From: Nonomuraea typhae
GTDB lineage: Bacteria > Actinomycetota > Actinomycetes > Streptosporangiales > Streptosporangiaceae
Direction of reading: 5' to 3'
DNA: 64,000 bases
NCBI RefSeq assembly: GCF_009760925.1
Contig: NZ_VRLV01000002.1
Coordinates: 62,001 to 126,000, forward strand
Shown: in pieces, positions 55,659-64,000 of the stretch
How positions within the stretch are numbered: the stretch's first letter is position 1
Layout of the letters: each line of letters opens with the position of its first letter
Notes under the pieces: generated by a model
The model's input: only the letters and a program-made list of their open reading frames with translations
What the model was told of the DNA's origin: nothing
Database searches by the model: none
Translations under genes and position numbers: made by a program

Positions 55659-55754
55659 CGGCCGGTAGCGGCCGGCAAACTGCCCGCTGATCATCAGCCC
55701 TGGTCACAGCCATGGAAGGAGACCCCCGATGCTCCGGAAGCACCTGTATGTTCG

Positions 55755-56297
55755 GTGTCGGTCACACGCGGAGTCGTCTCCGTCCTGCGGCGACTCTTCG
55801 AGCCCGCCGTATTAAAGCGCCTGATCGCCGAGACCCCGTTCCAGGACATCGCCACCCCCAAGCCCCCGCCCCGCAAGGAACTCAACGTCCCCACCTGGAC
55901 CCAAGTGAAGGCCATCGCCGACGCGATGCCCGAACGGTGGCGGGCGATCGTGTGGCTGATGGCCGGAGCCGGGCTCCGCATCGACGAATCCCTTGCCTTC
56001 CACAAGACCTGCATCCGCCCCGACCGGCTACGCATCCACCAGCAGTACGACCGCCGCGACGGCCTGACCCCGCTCAAGCACCGCGAGGAAGGCGAGAGCC
56101 GGTACATGCCCCTCCCGGCCTACCTGCGCGACATCCTGACCGACCACATGGCCACCCACGGCACCCACTCAGACGGCTACCTGTTCGCCGGAGAGAAGTC
56201 CACGTTCGTCGTGGACGACACCTTCCGTAACCGCTTCACCGACGCCGTTAAGAAGGCAGGTATCAAGACCCGCTTCACGCCCCACGACCTAAGGCAC
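55755..56297 (+). pseudogene. Tyrosine integrase of the island, N-terminal half (truncated and split)
   Basis: Seen: from about 55755, LIAETPFQDIATPKPPPRKELNVPTWTQVKAIADAMPERWRAIVWLMAGAGLRIDESLAF carries catalytic Arg I (GLRIDE). The segment ends at HDLRH, the HxxR pair, at 56297. The next codons (IVFA, stop 56312) come from the nested element. The core-binding N-terminal domain is also absent, so the gene is truncated at its 5' end as well. It continues at 63097-63294. Known: such integrases insert at tRNA genes, consistent with the att sites. Confidence 0.85.
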
Positions 56298-56298
56298 A

Positions 56299-56308
56299 TT
56301 GTCTTCGC
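56299..56308 (+). repeat. Imperfect terminal inverted repeat, left
   Basis: TTGTCTTCGC (56299-56308) matches the inverse of GCGGACACAA (63085-63094, reads TTGTGTCCGC) at 8 of 10 positions, and similarity extends inward over a further 13-16 bases (CGTGTTGC versus CGTGTGC). Ends lie within a few bases of the integrase break. Confidence 0.5.
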
Positions 56309-56409
56309 TTAGTTCTCGTGTTGCGATTGGTGCCTGAAGCGGGGCCCTACCTGGTTGTTTGAGTGTTGCGCTGACCTGTGTGGTATTTCTACTGTCGGTG
56401 CCCGTGATC

Positions 56410-57879
56410 ATGAGCTTCTTCTCGTCCCGGGGCTGGGAGTCCTGGGATGTTGAGCACCGGCCGGTGATCCCGGAGGGGATGCCGGTGCTGGTCGACGATG
56501 ACTTGCTGTTCGAGGACGGCGCGGCTGCGCCGCGTCCGGCCGCGGTGGTGAATCGCTGGCTACGGGAGCTCCCAGCCAGCGGGGCTCCAGCGCCGAGTTC
56601 GTGGGAGAACTACGCGCGGGTTCTGAAGCAGTGGATGGAGTTCCTGGCCGAGCACGGAGTGGCGCTGTTCGACTCGCGAGGGCGGCTGAAAGCTGGGCTG
56701 AGCCGGTATGCCGAGCACCGCGCCGCGGGACCGGTCGAAGCCAGGTTCGCGGCGACGACCTGGGGCCAGCACATGAGCATCCTGTCGTTGTTCTACGGGT
56801 GGGCGATCAGCGAGGGATACGCGGCGGCCGAGCCGTTCACCTACCGTTCCGCGCGGGCACTGTTCGCCGGGACCGGTCGGGAGGTGAAGGTCAATCTGGC
56901 GGTTCGCCGCACGCCGAAGCCGCACGTGACGATCAAGTATCTGGAGCCGGACTTCACCGAGTTGTTGCGCAAGGGGCTGCGGGGGCTGGCCCCAGACGGC
57001 TCGCAGGACACCGCCTTCAACGGCCGCGAGCTCGTCCGCAACGCCGCGGTCGGGGACCTGGCGCTGGCTACTGGGCTGCGGCTGCAGGAGTTCACCTACC
57101 TGCTGCGATGGGAGATCCCTGCGCTTCCGCCAGAGCCGACGGCGGTGCCGATACCGTTCCCGGTCCCGGCGGGGGTGACCAAGGGCCGCAAGTTCCGCAC
57201 CACCTGGATCTCCTACGAGGCCCTCGCCGGGGTGCACGTCTATCTGGAACTGGACCGTGCGGCCACCACCGAGGGCTCGGGATGGAGACCGCCGCGAAGG
57301 TGGGGCGATCGGTTCCAGGTCACCGAGCCCGACGCGCGGGGCGGGCGGGTCAACGGGGTGCGCCGCTCGTGGGGCTCGCTCAGCCCAGCAGAGCGCCGCC
57401 GCCTGGTGGCCCCGGAGGGCGGCTCGTGCCTGGTGGCGGTGAAGAGCGGCGGCGGCCCGTTCACTGCCTGGGCCACCGTCTTCGAGCGGACCTCCGAGCG
57501 GCTCCGGACCCGGTTCGAGCCCCGCTTCCCGCATGTCTGGCCCCACCGCCTCCGCCACACGTTTTCGATGCGAACCCTGGAATACCTGGTCACCGGACAT
57601 TACCGGCAGGCCGCGAAGCTCGTGACAGAGACCGACGCGGACGCCGCGCTGGTGTTCTACCTGTCCAAGGCCGACCCACTGCTGGTCCTGCGCGACCTGT
57701 TGGGCCACAGCACCGTCTTGGTGACGGAGAAGTACCTGCGCCGGCTGGACACCACGCGCATCTACCGGCAGGCCTACGAGGCTGCGGGGGCAGCTGCCGG
57801 GTTCCTCACCGAGACAGCCGCCGAGCAGGAGGCGGACGAGGAATTCGAGGGCGAATTGGAGAGTGTGGGCGGTACCTGA
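56410..57879 (+). CDS. Tyrosine recombinase 1 of the nested element
   Basis: Seen: 489 aa from ATG 56410 (an upstream start at 56359 adds only a hydrophobic stretch). The SAM-like N-terminal domain runs SSWENYARVLKQWMEFLAEHG to WGQHMSILSLFYGWAISEG. The catalytic set is complete: ATGLRLQEF (Arg I), PHRLRHTFS (HxxR), LLGHSTVLVTEKYLR (His and Tyr nucleophile). Known: cuts and joins DNA via a 3'-phosphotyrosine. Its stop overlaps the next ATG (TGATG), so translation is coupled. Confidence 0.85.
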   Translation: MSFFSSRGWESWDVEHRPVIPEGMPVLVDDDLLFEDGAAAPRPAAVVNRWLRELPASGAPAPSSWENYARVLKQWMEFLAEHGVALFDSRGRLKAGLSRYAEHRAAGPVEARFAATTWGQHMSILSLFYGWAISEGYAAAEPFTYRSARALFAGTGREVKVNLAVRRTPKPHVTIKYLEPDFTELLRKGLRGLAPDGSQDTAFNGRELVRNAAVGDLALATGLRLQEFTYLLRWEIPALPPEPTAVPIPFPVPAGVTKGRKFRTTWISYEALAGVHVYLELDRAATTEGSGWRPPRRWGDRFQVTEPDARGGRVNGVRRSWGSLSPAERRRLVAPEGGSCLVAVKSGGGPFTAWATVFERTSERLRTRFEPRFPHVWPHRLRHTFSMRTLEYLVTGHYRQAAKLVTETDADAALVFYLSKADPLLVLRDLLGHSTVLVTEKYLRRLDTTRIYRQAYEAAGAAAGFLTETAAEQEADEEFEGELESVGGT

Positions 57880-59601
57880 TGCCGACGATGGTCGTTGAAG
57901 AGCCGTTGGGCATCGTCTGCGTGTTCAGCGACGGCAGCCGGGCCGAGTTCGGCTTAGACGGCTTGCCCAATCCGTTCCTGGCCCGTGATCTGGCCGTCGG
58001 CCTGGTGGAGCTGATTCACCCACACGGCAGCGTCGATGCGGCAGGCTCGGTCCACCACTATGTTCGGTCCCTGCGAACCATGGTCAAGTCCCTGGCGGGA
58101 CAAGGCTTCGGCGGCGGCGCCGGTGATCTTCGGCGGGGCCAGCTTGCGCAGTTCTGGATGGCCGGACCTGCGCCTTTGGAAGCGATGACCCGCAGCCTAG
58201 TGGAGGGTTTCGCCCGTTCCGGCGGCGTTCTGGGCGAGGGGGTGCTGGAGCTGGCTGCCGGCCGGCATTTCAACATCCAACCTTTTCGGCAAGCACTGCC
58301 GCCCTACCGGAGGCCGAATGGGAGCGGCTGACCGGGGTCTGCCGAAGGCTGATCGACGAAGCCTATGCCGCCCATCGGCAGGCGCTGGCAGCCGTCGCCG
58401 CCGGGCGGCATCCGGCTGAGGGCGGGTGGCGGGTGGAGAACTTCTGCTGGCTGCTGGCCCGAACTGGTCCGGTCGGCACACCGCAGTTCGCCCAGGCCGT
58501 CGGCGTGACCGTCAACGTCTTTCACAAGCGCGGTGGCACCGTCGACCTTCATGAGGCGATGCAGGCCGTCTTCCCGCACCTGGACACGCTCATCGCCTAC
58601 CGGCTGCTGTTCGGCGCCTACTCCGGGATCGTCCCGGACGGCATCGCCGACCTCGGTGTCGAGGACGTCGACTGGGCCGGGGATTCCACGATCCTGCTGT
58701 CCTATGTCAAAGGCCGAACCGCGGCCGAGAGCCTGAATCTTCCGCGCCCGGCGGTGCGGCTGCTGGAACAGTGGCTGGCCCACTCGGCACTGCTGCGCAG
58801 CCTCGTGCCGGCGCCGGAACGCAGCAAACTCTGGTTGGGGCTGAGCCAGGTCGGCAACGCACGCCTGGTCCGTGAGATCGATCGCGTCGCCGTCCAGCGC
58901 TGGGTCCGCCGCTTCAACGTCTTGGACGAGGACGGCCAGCCCATGAAGATCCACCGAGCGCGGATCCGCACCACCCACCAGTCGATGCGCGACAAGAGCA
59001 CCTGGACCGGCAGCGCCCGGGCCACAATCGACCCGAACCACACTCCGGCCGTCGAAGGTGATCACTACCTGACTGCCACGACCCCCGCCCAACGGCACAA
59101 CATCGAAACGATCGTTGAGGACGCTCAGTACGACATCCTGCGCCGCGCTCACCCACCCACGGTGATCACCGAGGCGGACGCGGCCGTGCTGGCCGAGAAC
59201 TATCCGCAGCTGATGGCGGACCTGGGCCTGGATGACGCGGCGATCATCGAACTGGTCGGCGGGGCGAGGGATGTGTTCACCGCGGCCTGCGGCGACCAAC
59301 TGTCGGGACTGCACGGCCCGTCGGCAAGCCGTGTCCGGCCCGCCCTTGGGTCTGCCTCCTCTGCCCGCTGGCGATCTTCGCTCCACGCCATGCGGTGAAC
59401 GTGCTTCGGCTCAAAGCGTTCTTCTCCCGGCAGTGGCAGCAGATGCCCGCCGCGCACTTCATGGCCGTCTTCGGCCCTTATGTCGCCCGGGTCGACCAGG
59501 TGCTGAACCGATTCGACCCCGCCGTACTCGTCTCGGCGGCCGCCAAGGTCGCCGGCACCGATGAGGAGATCCCCCTACGCCCCGAGGAGCAGACGGCATG
59601 A
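57879..59601 (+). pseudogene. Tyrosine recombinase 2 of the nested element, two frameshifts
   Basis: Seen: from ATG 57879 the frame reads to about 58283 (RHFNIQPF), then the homologous text continues one base back (LPEAEWERLTGVCRRLID...WRVENFCWLL), and again near 59320 (DQLSGLHG, then VGKPCPARPWVCLLCPLAIFAPRH...LRLKAFFSRQWQQM). Each shift equals a one-base loss. Restored length is about 574 aa. Core blocks TTHQSMRDKSTWTGSARATIDPNHTP and GDHYL fit a tyrosine recombinase, but Arg I is not evident (SGIVPDGIAD), as in some trio members. The first shift has a CCTTTTC run, so a programmed event cannot be excluded. Confidence 0.75.
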
Positions 59602-61800
59602 CAGCGCCGACCGCCGCCCACCACCTCACCGAGGCCCCGGCTTCGCCGTTCGCCGGCGCCGACGTTTGCCGCCAGGCTGGTCTGGCTCTCCCCGACGACG
59701 CTACCCGCCCTGCCTTCGGCCATGATCTGTGGGATTTCACCCACGTCATCGGGTTGCCCGTCCAGATGCCTCCCCACCAGCGGCGCTTCGACTTCACCGC
59801 GATCACTCACCCCGGCTGGCGGCTGGTCGCCAAGGAGCTGGTGCTGGCGAAGCTGGCCCCACACCACCCAGCTGTCGCCCTGCTGCCGCGGGCCTACCGC
59901 ACGCCGTTGCACCTGCGCAGCTGCGCGGCCCGGCTGGACGAACTCGTCCGGTTCTTCACCTGGCTTCGACAGCGGGGCATCACCAGCCTGGCGCAGCTCG
60001 ACACGACCGGCTGCGAGGCCTATCTGGCCCACCGGCGCTTCGTTCTCGACAACGCCGGAGCCGTCGTCGGAGAGCAAAGCCCCGGCGTCCGACGCGCGGC
60101 CGCGCAGGCCATCATCGATCTGATCGACTATCGCGAGCTGTTCACCGCCGACCGGGTCCCGCCCGACCTGCGGCCCTGGGGTGGCGCCTCCGCCACTGCG
60201 GTGGCGGAGATGCCTTCGGGCCGGGAAGGAAACAAGACCGCGCCGGTTCCGAACGAGATCCTGCAGCCGATGCTCGCCGCGGCCCTGCACCTGGTCACGG
60301 TGCTCGGCCCGCACGCGGTCGCGCTACACCGGCAAGTACGCGAAATCGGCAAGGTGTCCTCGCTCAAGGCCGCAGGTCTTCGCCATAGCGCACCGACCGC
60401 CGTCGAAGACATCAAGGTTGTGCTGGCCGACTATGTCGCCACCGGCACCGCCCTGCCGATGATCGAGGACCATGATCGCGAGCCGAGGCTGGCCGCCGGC
60501 TGGGCCTGCGACGACCCGCTGCTGGCGGTGGCCACCCGGGGTCCTGGCCAGACAGGCCGGCTACACCCAGCTCTGGACCCGATGGATGCCGATGCTGCGT
60601 GGTCCGCTCCAGGAGGCGGTGGCCTTGGTGGGAGTGGGCAAGCAGTTCGCCGGCGACGCCGCCGAAGTCCCGGCCGCCGACGGCTCGGGCATGCTGCCGT
60701 GGACTCTTCCGCTGCACCGGTCCCAGGCCGTCGCCTTGATTGGGTTCGTCCGCACCGCGGCCATCATCGTGCTGGCCGCGGTCTCGGGGATGCGGGCCAG
60801 TGAGCTGATGGAACTGCGCGTCGGTTGCCGACGCCCGATCGAGGAGCCGATTCCCGGAATGCGGCGGTTGCGGATCGCCAGCAAGGTCGTCAAAGGCCAG
60901 CCGCTGGGCGGCACCGACGACGAATGGGTCGTCATCGAGCCCGCCTATCAGGCCGTCGAACTCGCCGAGCAACTACACGAGGACCCACAGCACGGCGCCC
61001 TGCTGTTCGGCCGCTTCAGCTTCTACTTCCGCTACATCTGGTTCCGGAACTGGATCAACTCCCCAGCCGGACAGCGTCTTGGACTGGCCCCGATCCCCGA
61101 GTGGCCGGTCACGCTCAGGGCGCTGCGAAGAACTCTCGCGCTGGAGATGGCCTACCGTCCCGGCGGCGTCCTCGCCGCCAAGATCCACCTGAAGCACATC
61201 GCCGTCGCCACCACCGAGGGCTACGCCTCCCGTCCCGGAGGCGCCCAGGCCGAACTACTTGCCGAGGTCAACAAGCACGAGGCCGACCGCAACCTGGAAT
61301 TGATCCTGGCCGAGTTCCGCAACTACCAGCAGGGCATCCTGCCCGCCGGACCAGCTGCCCGGGACCTGACCGCGTTCTTCGCCAGCGTTGACGCCACCTT
61401 GGACACCAAGGTCTTGGCCGCACCCAAGACCCACAACAACGACCGCGACATCCTCAACCTGCTCAGCAAACGCGCCAAGGTTCTGCACCTTGGCGCGGCG
61501 AACTACTGCTGGTTCACCGACCCTTCCCGGGCGCTCTGCCTCCGCCTGGCTGGCACGCCCACCGCCGAACGGCCTCTGATCGGAATGTGTGACTCGGCCC
61601 GCTGCCCGCAGGCCACCCACCACCCCTGCCACCGTCCCGTCTGGGCCGAGCACGCCGATCGGACCGAGACCTTCCTCGGCCAGCTCGGCTCCACCCGCAA
61701 GACCGAACGATCCCGGCTCCAAGCCGACCACGACCGGGCCCTCCGCGTCATCGCGGAGATCGACGCCGCCAGCATCACCGACACCGAGGAGTCCGCATGA
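59598..61800 (+). pseudogene. Tyrosine recombinase 3 (TnpB-like), one frameshift
   Basis: Seen: from ATG 59598, overlapping the previous stop, the frame reads to 60539 (DDPLLAVATR), then one extra G in GGGG (60537-60541) shifts it; coding continues VLARQAGYTQLWTRWMPMLRG and runs to 61800. Restored length about 734 aa, like the large TnpB of Tn554-type elements. VSGMRASELMELR (Arg I), SKVVKGQPLGG (Lys), VTLRALRRTLALEM, LKHIAVATTEGYAS (His, Tyr) are present. A Cys/His segment MCDSARCPQATHHPCHRPVW near the end may bind Zn. Without reframing it would be inactive. Confidence 0.78.
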
Positions 61801-62261
61801 GGATTTCCGCAGCCCAGCGGACCGAGAACGAAACCCGCATCCGAGCCGCCATGGACCGCCTCCTGCGCGGCGAACTCCAGCCCGGCGGCAAGTGCGATAT
61901 CAAGACCCTCGCTCGCGAAGCCGACGTCGACCGCACCGCCTTCTACGGCACCCGCCCCTACGCTCACCTCCGCACCGAGTTCGAGCGCCGCCTCCGGACC
62001 CTGCAGCAGCAAACCGGCGAGACCCCCGACCCGCGCGAGGCCCAGATCATCCGGCTCAAGGCAGCGAACGCCAAACTCAAGGAACGACTCGCGCAAGCAG
62101 AGCAGGCCAACACAGAGCTCACCGACTTCCGCAGCCAGGCCCTGGCCCGGCTGGCCGCGCAACATGAAGAGATCGTCAGGCTCCGAACCGTCGCCGATGC
62201 CTCCGCTCGCGTCGCCCGGCTCCCCAGCCCTCACGCGTCGGCCATCGGACCATGCGGCTGA
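61797..62261 (+). CDS. Small HTH/coiled-coil protein (DUF6262/TnpC-like)
   Basis: Seen: 154 aa from ATG 61797, overlapping the recombinase 3 stop by 4 bp. N-terminal HTH-like ERTENETRIRAAMDRLLRG and IKTLAREADVDRTAFYGTRPYAHLRTEFERR, then a long coiled coil (IRLKAANAKLKERLAQAEQANTELTDF). This matches DUF6262 accessory proteins found next to TnpA/TnpB-type recombinases and the role of TnpC in Tn554. Function inferred: assists recombination. Confidence 0.75.
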   Translation: MRISAAQRTENETRIRAAMDRLLRGELQPGGKCDIKTLAREADVDRTAFYGTRPYAHLRTEFERRLRTLQQQTGETPDPREAQIIRLKAANAKLKERLAQAEQANTELTDFRSQALARLAAQHEEIVRLRTVADASARVARLPSPHASAIGPCG

Positions 62262-62293
62262 CGCGGGCGACCACTCGTCCCTACGCTGTCCAG

Positions 62294-62944
62294 ATGATCA
62301 ATCCGATTGAACTCGTCATCTTCGACTGCGACGGCGTGCTCATCGACAGCGAACGCATTGCCGTGCGCGTCCATGTCGCCGTGGGCGCCGAGCTGGGCTG
62401 GCCGCTGACCGAAGCCGAGGTGATCGAAAAGTTCATCGGCCGGTCGATCGTCTCCAACGGAGAGCAAATCACCGCCCGAGTAGGCCCGAGCCGGGCCACG
62501 CTCTGGCTGGAGAGATTCGAGCAACTCCACCGCGCGGCCGTCGATGCCGAACTCACCCCGGTCGATGGCATCCTCGAAGTGCTCGACACCCTCACGCTTC
62601 CCAACTGCGTCGCCTCTGGCGGCAGTCACGACACGATGCGCCACACCCTGGGCCACACCGGGATCTACCGATACTTCGAAGGCCGCATCTTCAGCGCCAG
62701 TGAGGTCGCCCACGGCAAACCGGCCCCCGACCTGTTCCTGCACGCCGCCAAGCAGATGGGCGTCCACCCGTCGGCCTGCATCGTCGTCGAGGACAGCAAA
62801 TACGGGATCCAGGCAGCCCGCGCAGCCGGCATGCGCGCCCTTGGATACACCGGCGGACTCACACCCGCGCAATGGCTCGAAGGACCGAACACAACGGTCT
62901 TCGACGACATGCGCAAACTCCCGGGACTGCTCGCAGGAGCCTGA
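62294..62944 (+). CDS. HAD-superfamily phosphatase (beta-phosphoglucomutase-like), element cargo
   Basis: Seen: 216 aa from ATG 62294 (ATG 62252 overlaps the preceding gene). Motif I is FDCDGVLIDSE, motif II VASGGS, motif III GKPAPD, motif IV VVEDSKYG, a complete HAD set with C1 cap, similar to phosphatases of sugar phosphates. It lies in the nested element after the small HTH protein and before its right end, so it is likely cargo. No ribosome site is clear. Substrate unknown. A CRP-like palindrome follows at 62965. Confidence 0.82.
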   Translation: MINPIELVIFDCDGVLIDSERIAVRVHVAVGAELGWPLTEAEVIEKFIGRSIVSNGEQITARVGPSRATLWLERFEQLHRAAVDAELTPVDGILEVLDTLTLPNCVASGGSHDTMRHTLGHTGIYRYFEGRIFSASEVAHGKPAPDLFLHAAKQMGVHPSACIVVEDSKYGIQAARAAGMRALGYTGGLTPAQWLEGPNTTVFDDMRKLPGLLAGA

Positions 62945-62964
62945 CTGACCATGACCTCGCGCGT

Positions 62965-62980
62965 TGTGATCCGCATCACA
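62965..62980. promoter_or_regulatory. CRP-like palindrome near the right end of the element
   Basis: TGTGATCCGCATCACA carries TGTGA-N6-TCACA with 6-bp inverted arms, 20 bp past the HAD stop. The stretch 62945-63096 has no gene otherwise. It resembles the site at 2661-2676; function is unproven here because no gene start follows closely. Confidence 0.35.
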
Positions 62981-63096
62981 TAGGGAACAGTCGAATGCAA
63001 CACGCCCCGGAATCGGCATGGCGAACGCAGCATTCACAACGATGCTGCTCAATGACTACACAAAACCACCTGCACACGGCCACTGCGGACACAAGC

Positions 63097-63294
63097 CACT
63101 CCTTCGCCTCGCGCGCCCTCGCTGACGGTGTCCGCATCGACGCCGTCGCCCGCCGGCTCGGCCACAAGGACATCAACGAGACCTATAAGACGTACGCCCA
63201 TCTCCTGCCGGACGAGTACGCCAAGGCCGCCAAGGTCCTGGACGCCGCCTACCGGGAAGCCACCCCAGCCACCCCAGCCGCCCAAGCGGCATGA
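63097..63294 (+). pseudogene. Tyrosine integrase of the island, C-terminal half
   Basis: Seen: HSFASRALADGVRIDAVARRLGHKDINETYKTYAHLLPDEYAKAAKVLDAAYREA, beginning at the element boundary. It carries the second His (LGHKD) and the nucleophile Tyr (TYKTYAHLLP). Together with 55755-56297 it rebuilds the catalytic domain. It lies 74 bp from the right att site, where an integrase gene is expected. Confidence 0.88.
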
Positions 63295-63422: not shown

Positions 63423-63495
63423 GATCTTGCGGTTCGCGTGCCGGCCGATCAAGGATGGGGCTTGACGGTGACCGCCCCGCCCCGTGGAGTGCGCG

Positions 63496-64000
63496 ATGAA
63501 CCTGATCTTCGACGCCGACGACACGTTGTGGGAGAACAACGTGCTGTTCGAGAGCATCATCGAGGCATTCATCGACGCGATGGCCCGGAACGGCCGCGGC
63601 CGCTCCGGGATCCGCGCGGTCCTGGACGCGATCGAGCGGGCCAACAGCCACGCGCACGGGTACGGCAGCGCGGTCTTCGAGCGCAGCCTGGCCGAGTGCA
63701 TGGAACGGCTGCGCGAGCCGTACCCCCTGACCGGCGAGGAGCGCGCCTGGATCACCGGCCTGTGCCGGGCGCTGCGCGAGGAGCCCGTCGAGCTGCTGCC
63801 GGGCGTCCCCGAGACGCTGCGGTCACTGGCCCTCCGGCACCGGCTCTACCTGTGCACCAAGGGCGAGCCGGCCGAGCAGCAGCGGAAGATCGGCTCCTCG
63901 GGGCTGGCCGGATTCTTCGAAGAGATCGTCATCGTCCGGGAGAAGGGCGCGGACACCTACCGTGACCTGGTCAAGACGTTCAGCCTGGACGCCGGGTCCA
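63496..64000 (+). CDS. HAD family hydrolase (3' end outside window)
   Basis: Seen: 168 codons from ATG 63496, preceded by GTGGAG. Motif I is MNLIFDADDTLWENN at the N-terminus (nucleophile Asp and DDTLW). The cap domain holds AFIDAMARNGRGRSGIRAVLDAIERA; motif II is LYLCTKGE, then FFEEIVIVREKGADTYRDL near the window end. Known: HAD phosphatases of this type act on small phosphate esters. It is the first chromosomal gene past the island and is unrelated in sequence to the HAD at 62294. Confidence 0.85.
   Translation, partial: MNLIFDADDTLWENNVLFESIIEAFIDAMARNGRGRSGIRAVLDAIERANSHAHGYGSAVFERSLAECMERLREPYPLTGEERAWITGLCRALREEPVELLPGVPETLRSLALRHRLYLCTKGEPAEQQRKIGSSGLAGFFEEIVIVREKGADTYRDLVKTFSLDAGS

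Follow-up and report, generated by a model that had tools for sequence, protein, structure and literature searches.

Site-specific mobile elements often land at a single conserved site, for example a tRNA gene, and the unique site of Tn554 is radC. The element described here lies at positions 56299-63094 of a 64,000-nucleotide stretch of the genome of Nonomuraea typhae (contig NZ_VRLV01000002.1, positions 62,001 to 126,000 of the forward strand), the whole of which is called the window below. It is in all likelihood a member of an actinobacterial family of four-gene tyrosine-recombinase (Y-recombinase) transposons that target catalytic codons and disable the integrases of other mobile DNA, so that its landing site is the protein-coding signature of a large and diverse enzyme family that moves mobile DNA, the element itself included. 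Among described systems, strand-biased circularizing elements (SE elements), in which the second protein lacks the catalytic RHRY set and circularization leaves no empty site, are reported, in the available sections of two papers, to target bcp, insJ, the yjjN terminator and the yaaA promoter, with no integrases among the targets given there (PMC9345347, PMC10214605). GInts (ginABCD) comprise three recombinase-type genes and a small helix-loop-helix protein, have a circular form and involve staggered cuts of 6-7 nt; the sections of their description at hand give an ABC transporter gene, ssb and a ribonucleotide reductase gene as targets, cargo of 2.5-70 kb, a degenerate third recombinase and, among the features of membership, imperfect direct repeats of 10-17 nt (PMC5385486). 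The Tn554-related transposons of actinobacteria, defined in 2012, possess two recombinases, one long (611-828 amino acids, aa) and one shorter (about 350 aa), together with a TnpC-like protein; the section that treats them describes no middle gene and no target, and Tn554 itself is given a unique site (PMC3414803). The 6 bp of the donor are placed at the right end of Tn554-related elements, and the recombinase-in-trio (RIT) archetype is described in the same excerpted account as having recombinases of 315-410 aa, all with the catalytic tyrosine, and inverted repeats of 34 bp (PMC10214605). Finally, the res-site hunters Tn5053 and Tn402 are portrayed, in the portion available, as aiming at the recombination module of other mobile elements (PMC7765201).

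The family of the window element shows the four-gene order of SE elements, intA-tfp-intB-srap, with matching sizes: the set beside blaGMA-1 on pSEA2 of Vibrio, taken as SE-6945, encodes 408, 581, 720 and 135 aa, compared with about 506, 575, 740 and 154 aa here, in the same order. Imperfect terminal motifs, a 6-bp spacer with a possible donor footprint at the right and optional cargo are further likenesses, whereas SE elements are found in Gammaproteobacteria and the present family in Actinobacteria. On this comparison the element appears to work like SE elements in layout and footprint, and it is not classed as one of them. GInts have a similar gene set, and some relatives of the window element carry cargo as they do; this likeness is one of description, with the ends compared as 6-bp spacers only, and the least recombinase-like protein is the middle one here but the third in GInts. 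The long (740 aa) and shorter (506 aa) recombinases recall the Tn554-related class, as does gene 4, in which DUF6262, a domain that we take to be linked to TnpC, is matched weakly in 8 of 23 relatives (E<=0.01). Three adjacent recombinase-like genes are shared with RIT elements, membership of which was rejected on the sizes of 506, 575 and 740 aa and on ends alike at only 8 of 12 bases by eye. The initial annotation named Tn554 and RIT elements as related layouts; the closest layout is that of SE elements and GInts rather than RIT. Res-site hunters use res sites and DDE-type transposition, whereas the target here is the coding DNA of a catalytic motif. In outline, therefore, the type of element is known; the target class, catalytic codons of Y-recombinases, would be new as far as the open papers searched show, and no account of a family aimed at such codons was found in those papers.

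The element interrupts a Y-recombinase gene at HDLRH|TFAS. The left integrase reading ends with the residues ...TPHDLRH, up to 56297, and the right one restarts as H-SFASRALADG from 63097. With its ends set by the terminal motifs, the element spans 6796 bp, beginning TTGTCTTCGC at 56299 and closing ...CTGCGGACACAA at 63094, and is flanked by spacers of 6 bp each (GGCACA at 56293-56298 on the left, GCCACT at 63095-63100 on the right). The left terminal motif (TTGTCTTCGCTTAGTTCTCGTGTTGCGATT, 56299..56328, + strand) agrees with the left-end consensus at 27 of 30 bases, against 22-28 of 30 in relatives with TnpA (the product of gene 1) at least 70% identical and a recognisable left end; the right terminal motif (CACACGGCCACTGCGGACACAA, 63073..63094, + strand) agrees with the right-end consensus at 21 of 22, the next best score downstream being 13. 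An insert of 6.8 kb readable from the split integrase had been claimed from the first inspection and is borne out with small corrections; the imperfect inverted ends noted at the same time do resemble each other, but as weak inverted repeats. The 5' remnant of the target gene (55752..56298, + strand), whose last 6 bases are the attL spacer, matches PF00589 positions 7-135 (E 2.4e-13), and the attR spacer with the 3' remnant (63095..63294, + strand) matches positions 134-169 (E 1.3e-5); in the Pfam coverage the right half extends over 130-169.

A further genome of the genus (L117) has an uninterrupted relative of the target, an intact frame of 409 aa that passes through PHDLRHTFASRALADGVRIDA. 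From residue 167 on, the L117 protein is 88% identical to the left integrase half of the window, and both window flanks align contiguously to this single gene, 87% each, so that the insert, as read from this alignment, is a single insertion event. If the left spacer is taken as the target's own, as in SE elements, the sequence before insertion is predicted to encode HDLRHTFAS, which is what L117 encodes. The N-terminal 166 residues or so of the interrupted integrase are missing (window 55659-55751) relative to L117, the closest relative found, and this loss is separate from the insertion. A locus on contig 12 of the window's own genome (L002, about 935850) matches the window upstream of the integrase and again over its last codons, but not across the integrase between them.

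Landing at the same codons recurs among the close relatives. The first four junctions compared lie in four different recombinase genes, all cut at one codon. The wider comparison covered 47 loci with TnpA at least 67.5% identical, tabulated after removal of the duplicates L012-L018. Eight were dropped: the contig starts at the element in L030, L031 and L039, the left end is unrecognisable in L048, L051 and L057, and the flanks are short in L053 and L054 (13 and 30 bases, ending in VLRH and AHRLRH). In the other 39, which show an end and whose flank is 60 bp or longer, left ends were found by motif, the 6-bp spacer was taken and the flank translated, and grouping of the 60-base flanks at 80% identity gave 30 distinct ones. 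Twenty-six of these are in phase at [H/R/Y]xxR[H/R/K], and L027 reads the same with a shift of one base. At the higher cut-off of 71%, chosen post hoc, 25 of 27 distinct flanks are in exact phase at the same base, with identical orientation in all 25, and L027 is again off by one. The initial annotation had proposed a search for the four-gene set in other actinomycetes and a comparison of its insertion sites; with L027 included, HxxR codons were found at 26 of 27 and 27 of 30 sites at the two cut-offs, and these repeated landings in diverse Y-recombinase genes support the target preference that it suggested. PF00589 is matched at E<=0.01 by 13 of the 25 left target peptides given (from the 30 distinct flanks, L047 being among the 25) and by 10 of 19 right ones; for the latter, 30 of the 47 right ends score at least 17, four of them lie at a contig end and the remainder represent 19 distinct right flanks. 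L060 and L061 were removed by alignment filters, and L061, which reads WTLHDLRH, is uncounted. Pairwise identity among the 25 left peptides has a median of 0.19 and reaches 0.66 in the top pair (L100 and L038). The window's genome holds 42 PF00589 matches in 11.4 Mb; repeated chance landing on one exact base is therefore not credible.

More distant relatives use other sites. In a subfamily with TnpA about 57% identical, NTLWALYL-like codons (WALYL or WAYYL) stand at the left junction (L076, L078, L080, L081, L085, L087, L088, L092, L103 and L029:17150), annotation of this type of target as an MFS transporter being present beside L023 only. In another subfamily the codons are those of ILDLFAG (L070:8897, L072:8897 and L082:8898), presumably resembling motif I of DNA cytosine methyltransferases. 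Targeting of Y-recombinases thus looks like a property of the clade of the window element and not of the whole family, so that the preference first suggested holds for close relatives and not for the more distant subfamilies examined; in sister lineages the target may have shifted to different conserved coding motifs, namely WALYL of MFS transporters and LDLFAG of DNA methyltransferase-like proteins. L079, L084 and L086 have other readings at the junction with a similar DNA word.

At the DNA level, information in the aligned sites peaks at codon positions 1 and 2 of H, L, R and H and at the first base of the spacer, which is G in 27 of 28. The window's genome has 31 occurrences of a crude pattern, CAYNNNYTNCGNCAYA, and 24 of its reversed control; 10 of the 31 fall within PF00589 matches and an eleventh in the tnpA of the element itself. 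If this pattern were the whole rule and the window's genome the pool, 26 of 27 insertions in Y-recombinases would have a probability of 3.6e-11, and therefore either recognition is longer or selection acts too. In leave-one-out scoring with a 40-position matrix built from 28 insertion sites, 14 of 18 sites score at least 18, a level reached once in 400 kb of chromosome, or about 28 times per genome. Applied to intact Y-recombinase segments from the window's genome, the matrix has its best match at the HxxR block, in register, in 20 of 20; 9 of these segments had been preselected for holding the crude pattern. The simplest reading is that the recombinases of the element bind a degenerate DNA site coinciding with the codons of HxLRHT(F)A.

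Traces of movement are present in several genomes. Rhodococcus koreensis possesses five copies, four of which share flank A (attL GGCATA); the fifth, L044, interrupts another recombinase, B (attL GGCACA). A block of 6.13 kb is common to L044 and three site-A copies at 98.6-99.9% identity, and L043, the remaining site-A copy, is cut by a contig end. In L041, L042, L044 and L063 this element of 6.1 kb, which lacks cargo, has all four of its frames open. The attR spacer of L044, GGCATA, is the attL spacer of site A, as predicted by the rule that the available sections give for SE elements, by which the donor's attL appears in the new attR (PMC9345347, PMC10214605). At L038:13553-19107 the right end is followed directly by HTFSMRTLEYLV, the C-terminus of a sibling tnpA, 83% identical and cut at the HRLRH codons; thus a sibling element, too, to judge by this junction, once served as target. 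Rearrangement has affected the L038 locus, where a different gene forms the left flank. Six Mycobacterium records (L033-L037 and L040), five of them from named species, have one insertion and its left flank in common, which suggests that a single carrier is shared by several Mycobacterium species.

A mechanism along the following lines would account for these observations. Recombination between the two ends would yield a circular copy, the intermediate of a presumed copy-out mode, which would then integrate by strand exchange over the 6-bp spacer. The target would be the codons that specify the catalytic HxLRHT(F)A motif of tyrosine recombinases, with a spacer that usually reads G-N-C-A-Y-A, and its choice would be set by sequence recognition by the element's own recombinases. 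As in SE elements, the 6 bp of the target would come to lie at the left end and those of the donor at the right. Integration would remove the part of the host integrase that carries the catalytic His and Tyr, so that the element would parasitise and disable the integrases of other mobile DNA, with the presumed effect on their fitness. The repeated landing of this element of soil bacteria on integrase catalytic codons suggests a parasite of mobile elements. At slightly less than even odds, the lineage may have evolved to read the HxLRHT codons of its own superfamily as attachment site, with a target available on nearly every integrase-bearing element, the integrase disarmed upon entry and siblings' tnpA included, which would make it a general hyperparasite of mobile DNA. 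With this family the idea that transposons prey on other mobile elements can be put to the test; its natural insertion sites form a collection from which the choice of DNA by multi-recombinase systems can be learned, and its recombinases have a defined and unusual specificity.

The concentration in integrases might also arise without target choice, if a loose DNA word occurs in many genes and only insertions in integrases, which are dispensable, have escaped purging. The crude motif is indeed common, at 31 occurrences beside 24 of the reversed control, with only 11 of the 31 in Y-recombinases, and insertions outside recombinases exist (L047 and L052). Against such survivorship stand the probability of 3.6e-11, calculated with a word that is a rough model and with a genome that is not the pool of DNA the elements met, and the better separation achieved by the 40-position matrix; genomes of this size presumably contain many other dispensable genes as well. 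We regard this explanation as unlikely. It is far less probable still that a single ancestral insertion in an integrase gene has spread by duplication or recombination of that gene. Shared flanks are seen in the six Mycobacterium loci, the four R. koreensis copies and L050 with L065, and the targets of L100 and L038 are 66% identical, but shared flanks were counted once, and the diversity of the targets, with its median identity of 0.19, largely contradicts such hitch-hiking. Nor is it credible, beyond the faintest chance, that the two integrase halves of the window come from different genes, brought together by two unrelated events, with ends lying elsewhere. A further loss, at the 5' side of the integrase, marks the locus as decayed, yet the contiguity of both halves with one L117 gene, at 87% each, led us to rule out a two-event origin, which the initial annotation had given as a possible refutation, and both terminal motifs recur in relatives.

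Several observations nevertheless weigh against the preferred reading of a family aimed at Y-recombinase codons. Three of the 30 distinct flanks (L047, L052 and L059) lie outside the HxxR pattern, and L047, the sole exception at or above the post hoc cut-off of 71%, is inside a nucleoside hydrolase gene (PF01156), with an identical spacer on both sides. Low matrix scores are obtained for L040 (8.6), L052 (-5.3) and L047 (-16.4). About half of the target peptides have no PF00589 match and are assigned by signature and flank reading, for example LGH...T..Y in the right flank, and the left flanks of L032, L073, L091 and L097 are only partly open as recombinase or have other matches (LacI in one). 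In R. koreensis L044 fits the footprint rule, but the attR spacer is GGCATA in L041 and GGCACA in L042 and L063; the footprint history is therefore not fully simple and involved more than one step. Movement of the element is read from sequence comparison. As regards SE kinship, hhalign comparison with the single SE-6945 proteins gave Prob values of 20.7, 0.2, 13.4 and 0.7 (E 0.0011, 0.35, 0.0021 and 0.082), on which SE membership by sequence was rejected. The gene 3 profile matches 42 residues of IntB at E 0.003, and the gene 1 profile finds nothing at E<=0.1; a distant tie of the two recombinases encoded by genes 1 and 3 to SE-6945 is possible.

All four core genes of the element are on the + strand, and the starts and stops of neighbouring genes overlap. 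Gene 1 (tnpA, intA-like; 56359..57879) encodes a Y-recombinase of 506 aa, has HRLRHT codons of its own at 57544, and retains residues R241, H396, R399, H450 and Y459, which are invariant in a six-sequence alignment. Gene 2 (57879..59601) was delimited from tblastn pieces, with frameshifts near 58,310 and 59,310; its product has about 575 aa in relatives (575 in L019), of which 73 open copies were aligned, and the window pieces have no Pfam match. The predicted model of a relative (L045) matches Cre and Cre-derived chains, with 9 PDB chains at E<=0.001 and a best value of 3.1e-4, though with low TM-scores, a pLDDT of 68.8 and a poor last third; the L045 sequence, row 1 of alignment A4, leaves the consensus at the C-terminus, apparently out of frame, which may weaken that part of the model. 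The gene 2 product may accordingly be described as a putative protein of Y-recombinase fold, by the structure match of a relative at low TM-scores. Gene 3 (59598..61800), also from tblastn pieces and with a frameshift near 60,540, is a large Y-recombinase gene of about 740 aa in relatives (740 in L019). Residues R406, R514, R517, H540 and Y549 are invariant in 21 sequences (alignment A6), in which R replaces the first H of HxxR, so that R, RxxR, H and Y are kept; a PDB sequence search with gene 3 returned no match at E<=0.01. Gene 4 (61797..62261) encodes 154 aa with a helix-turn-helix (HTH) and a coiled coil, and its DUF6262 match is weak (E 0.0039, below cut-off). The model of a relative predicts helices and a long coil, and a fold search with gene 4 gave no match at E<=0.001. 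No match was obtained with genes 2-4 of L045 in PHROGs or with the four window proteins in PADLOC. The three recombinases, the small HTH/coiled-coil gene and the HAD phosphatase first described are thus present in coupled order, while the frameshifts in genes 2 and 3 had been overlooked; because of them the window copy is probably immobile, or dead, unless they are sequencing errors.

The cargo gene (62252..62944, + strand) encodes a HAD-IA phosphatase (PF13419, E 3.9e-26; best NCBIfam match PRK10563, E 1.9e-43, below its cut-off), with the first ATG of its frame inside the end of gene 4 and an internal ATG at 62294. The ten cargo frames scanned in relatives comprise three methyltransferases, two metallophosphatases, two NUDIX proteins, one 2-phosphosulpholactate phosphatase-like protein, one nucleotidyltransferase-like protein and one without match, and none is a HAD protein. 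In the R. koreensis and Mycobacterium copies, L047 and L051, gene 4 is followed by the right end after 144-147 bp, with no cargo frame of at least 80 aa; in the relatives measured, L038 apart, this stretch does not exceed about 1.6 kb. The HAD gene belongs to a variable cargo, a correction to the first description, which had already called it cargo. A role as part of the machinery was ruled out, relatives of about 6.1 kb having no cargo frame (at least 80 aa) and others different cargo. A second HAD-type frame (PF00702) lies just outside the element at window positions 63484-63999 and is distinct from the one within. The cargo frame of a Nocardia element (L050:14873-15793) has an AadA_C match and a weaker nucleotidyltransferase domain, as in aminoglycoside-modifying enzymes.

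With the window's own genome included in both cases, relatives of TnpA occur in 9 of 394 genomes drawn from the class (E<=1e-40) and in 6 of 98 nearer relatives (E<=1e-20); among plasmid records they occur in 113 of 72,556 (E<=1e-20), and two scans of IMG/VR, with queries P0001 and A1, gave none. At least 79 named loci come from GTDB contigs, the locus list being the best 80 of 96 confirmed relatives. In the alphaproteobacterial plasmid loci L164 and L166, relatives of gene 1 at about 30% identity are followed by hypothetical genes, and no recombinase is annotated within 2.5 kb upstream. At L109:6748-12262 two elements stand head to tail, and a right-end-like motif of the first precedes the left end of the second.

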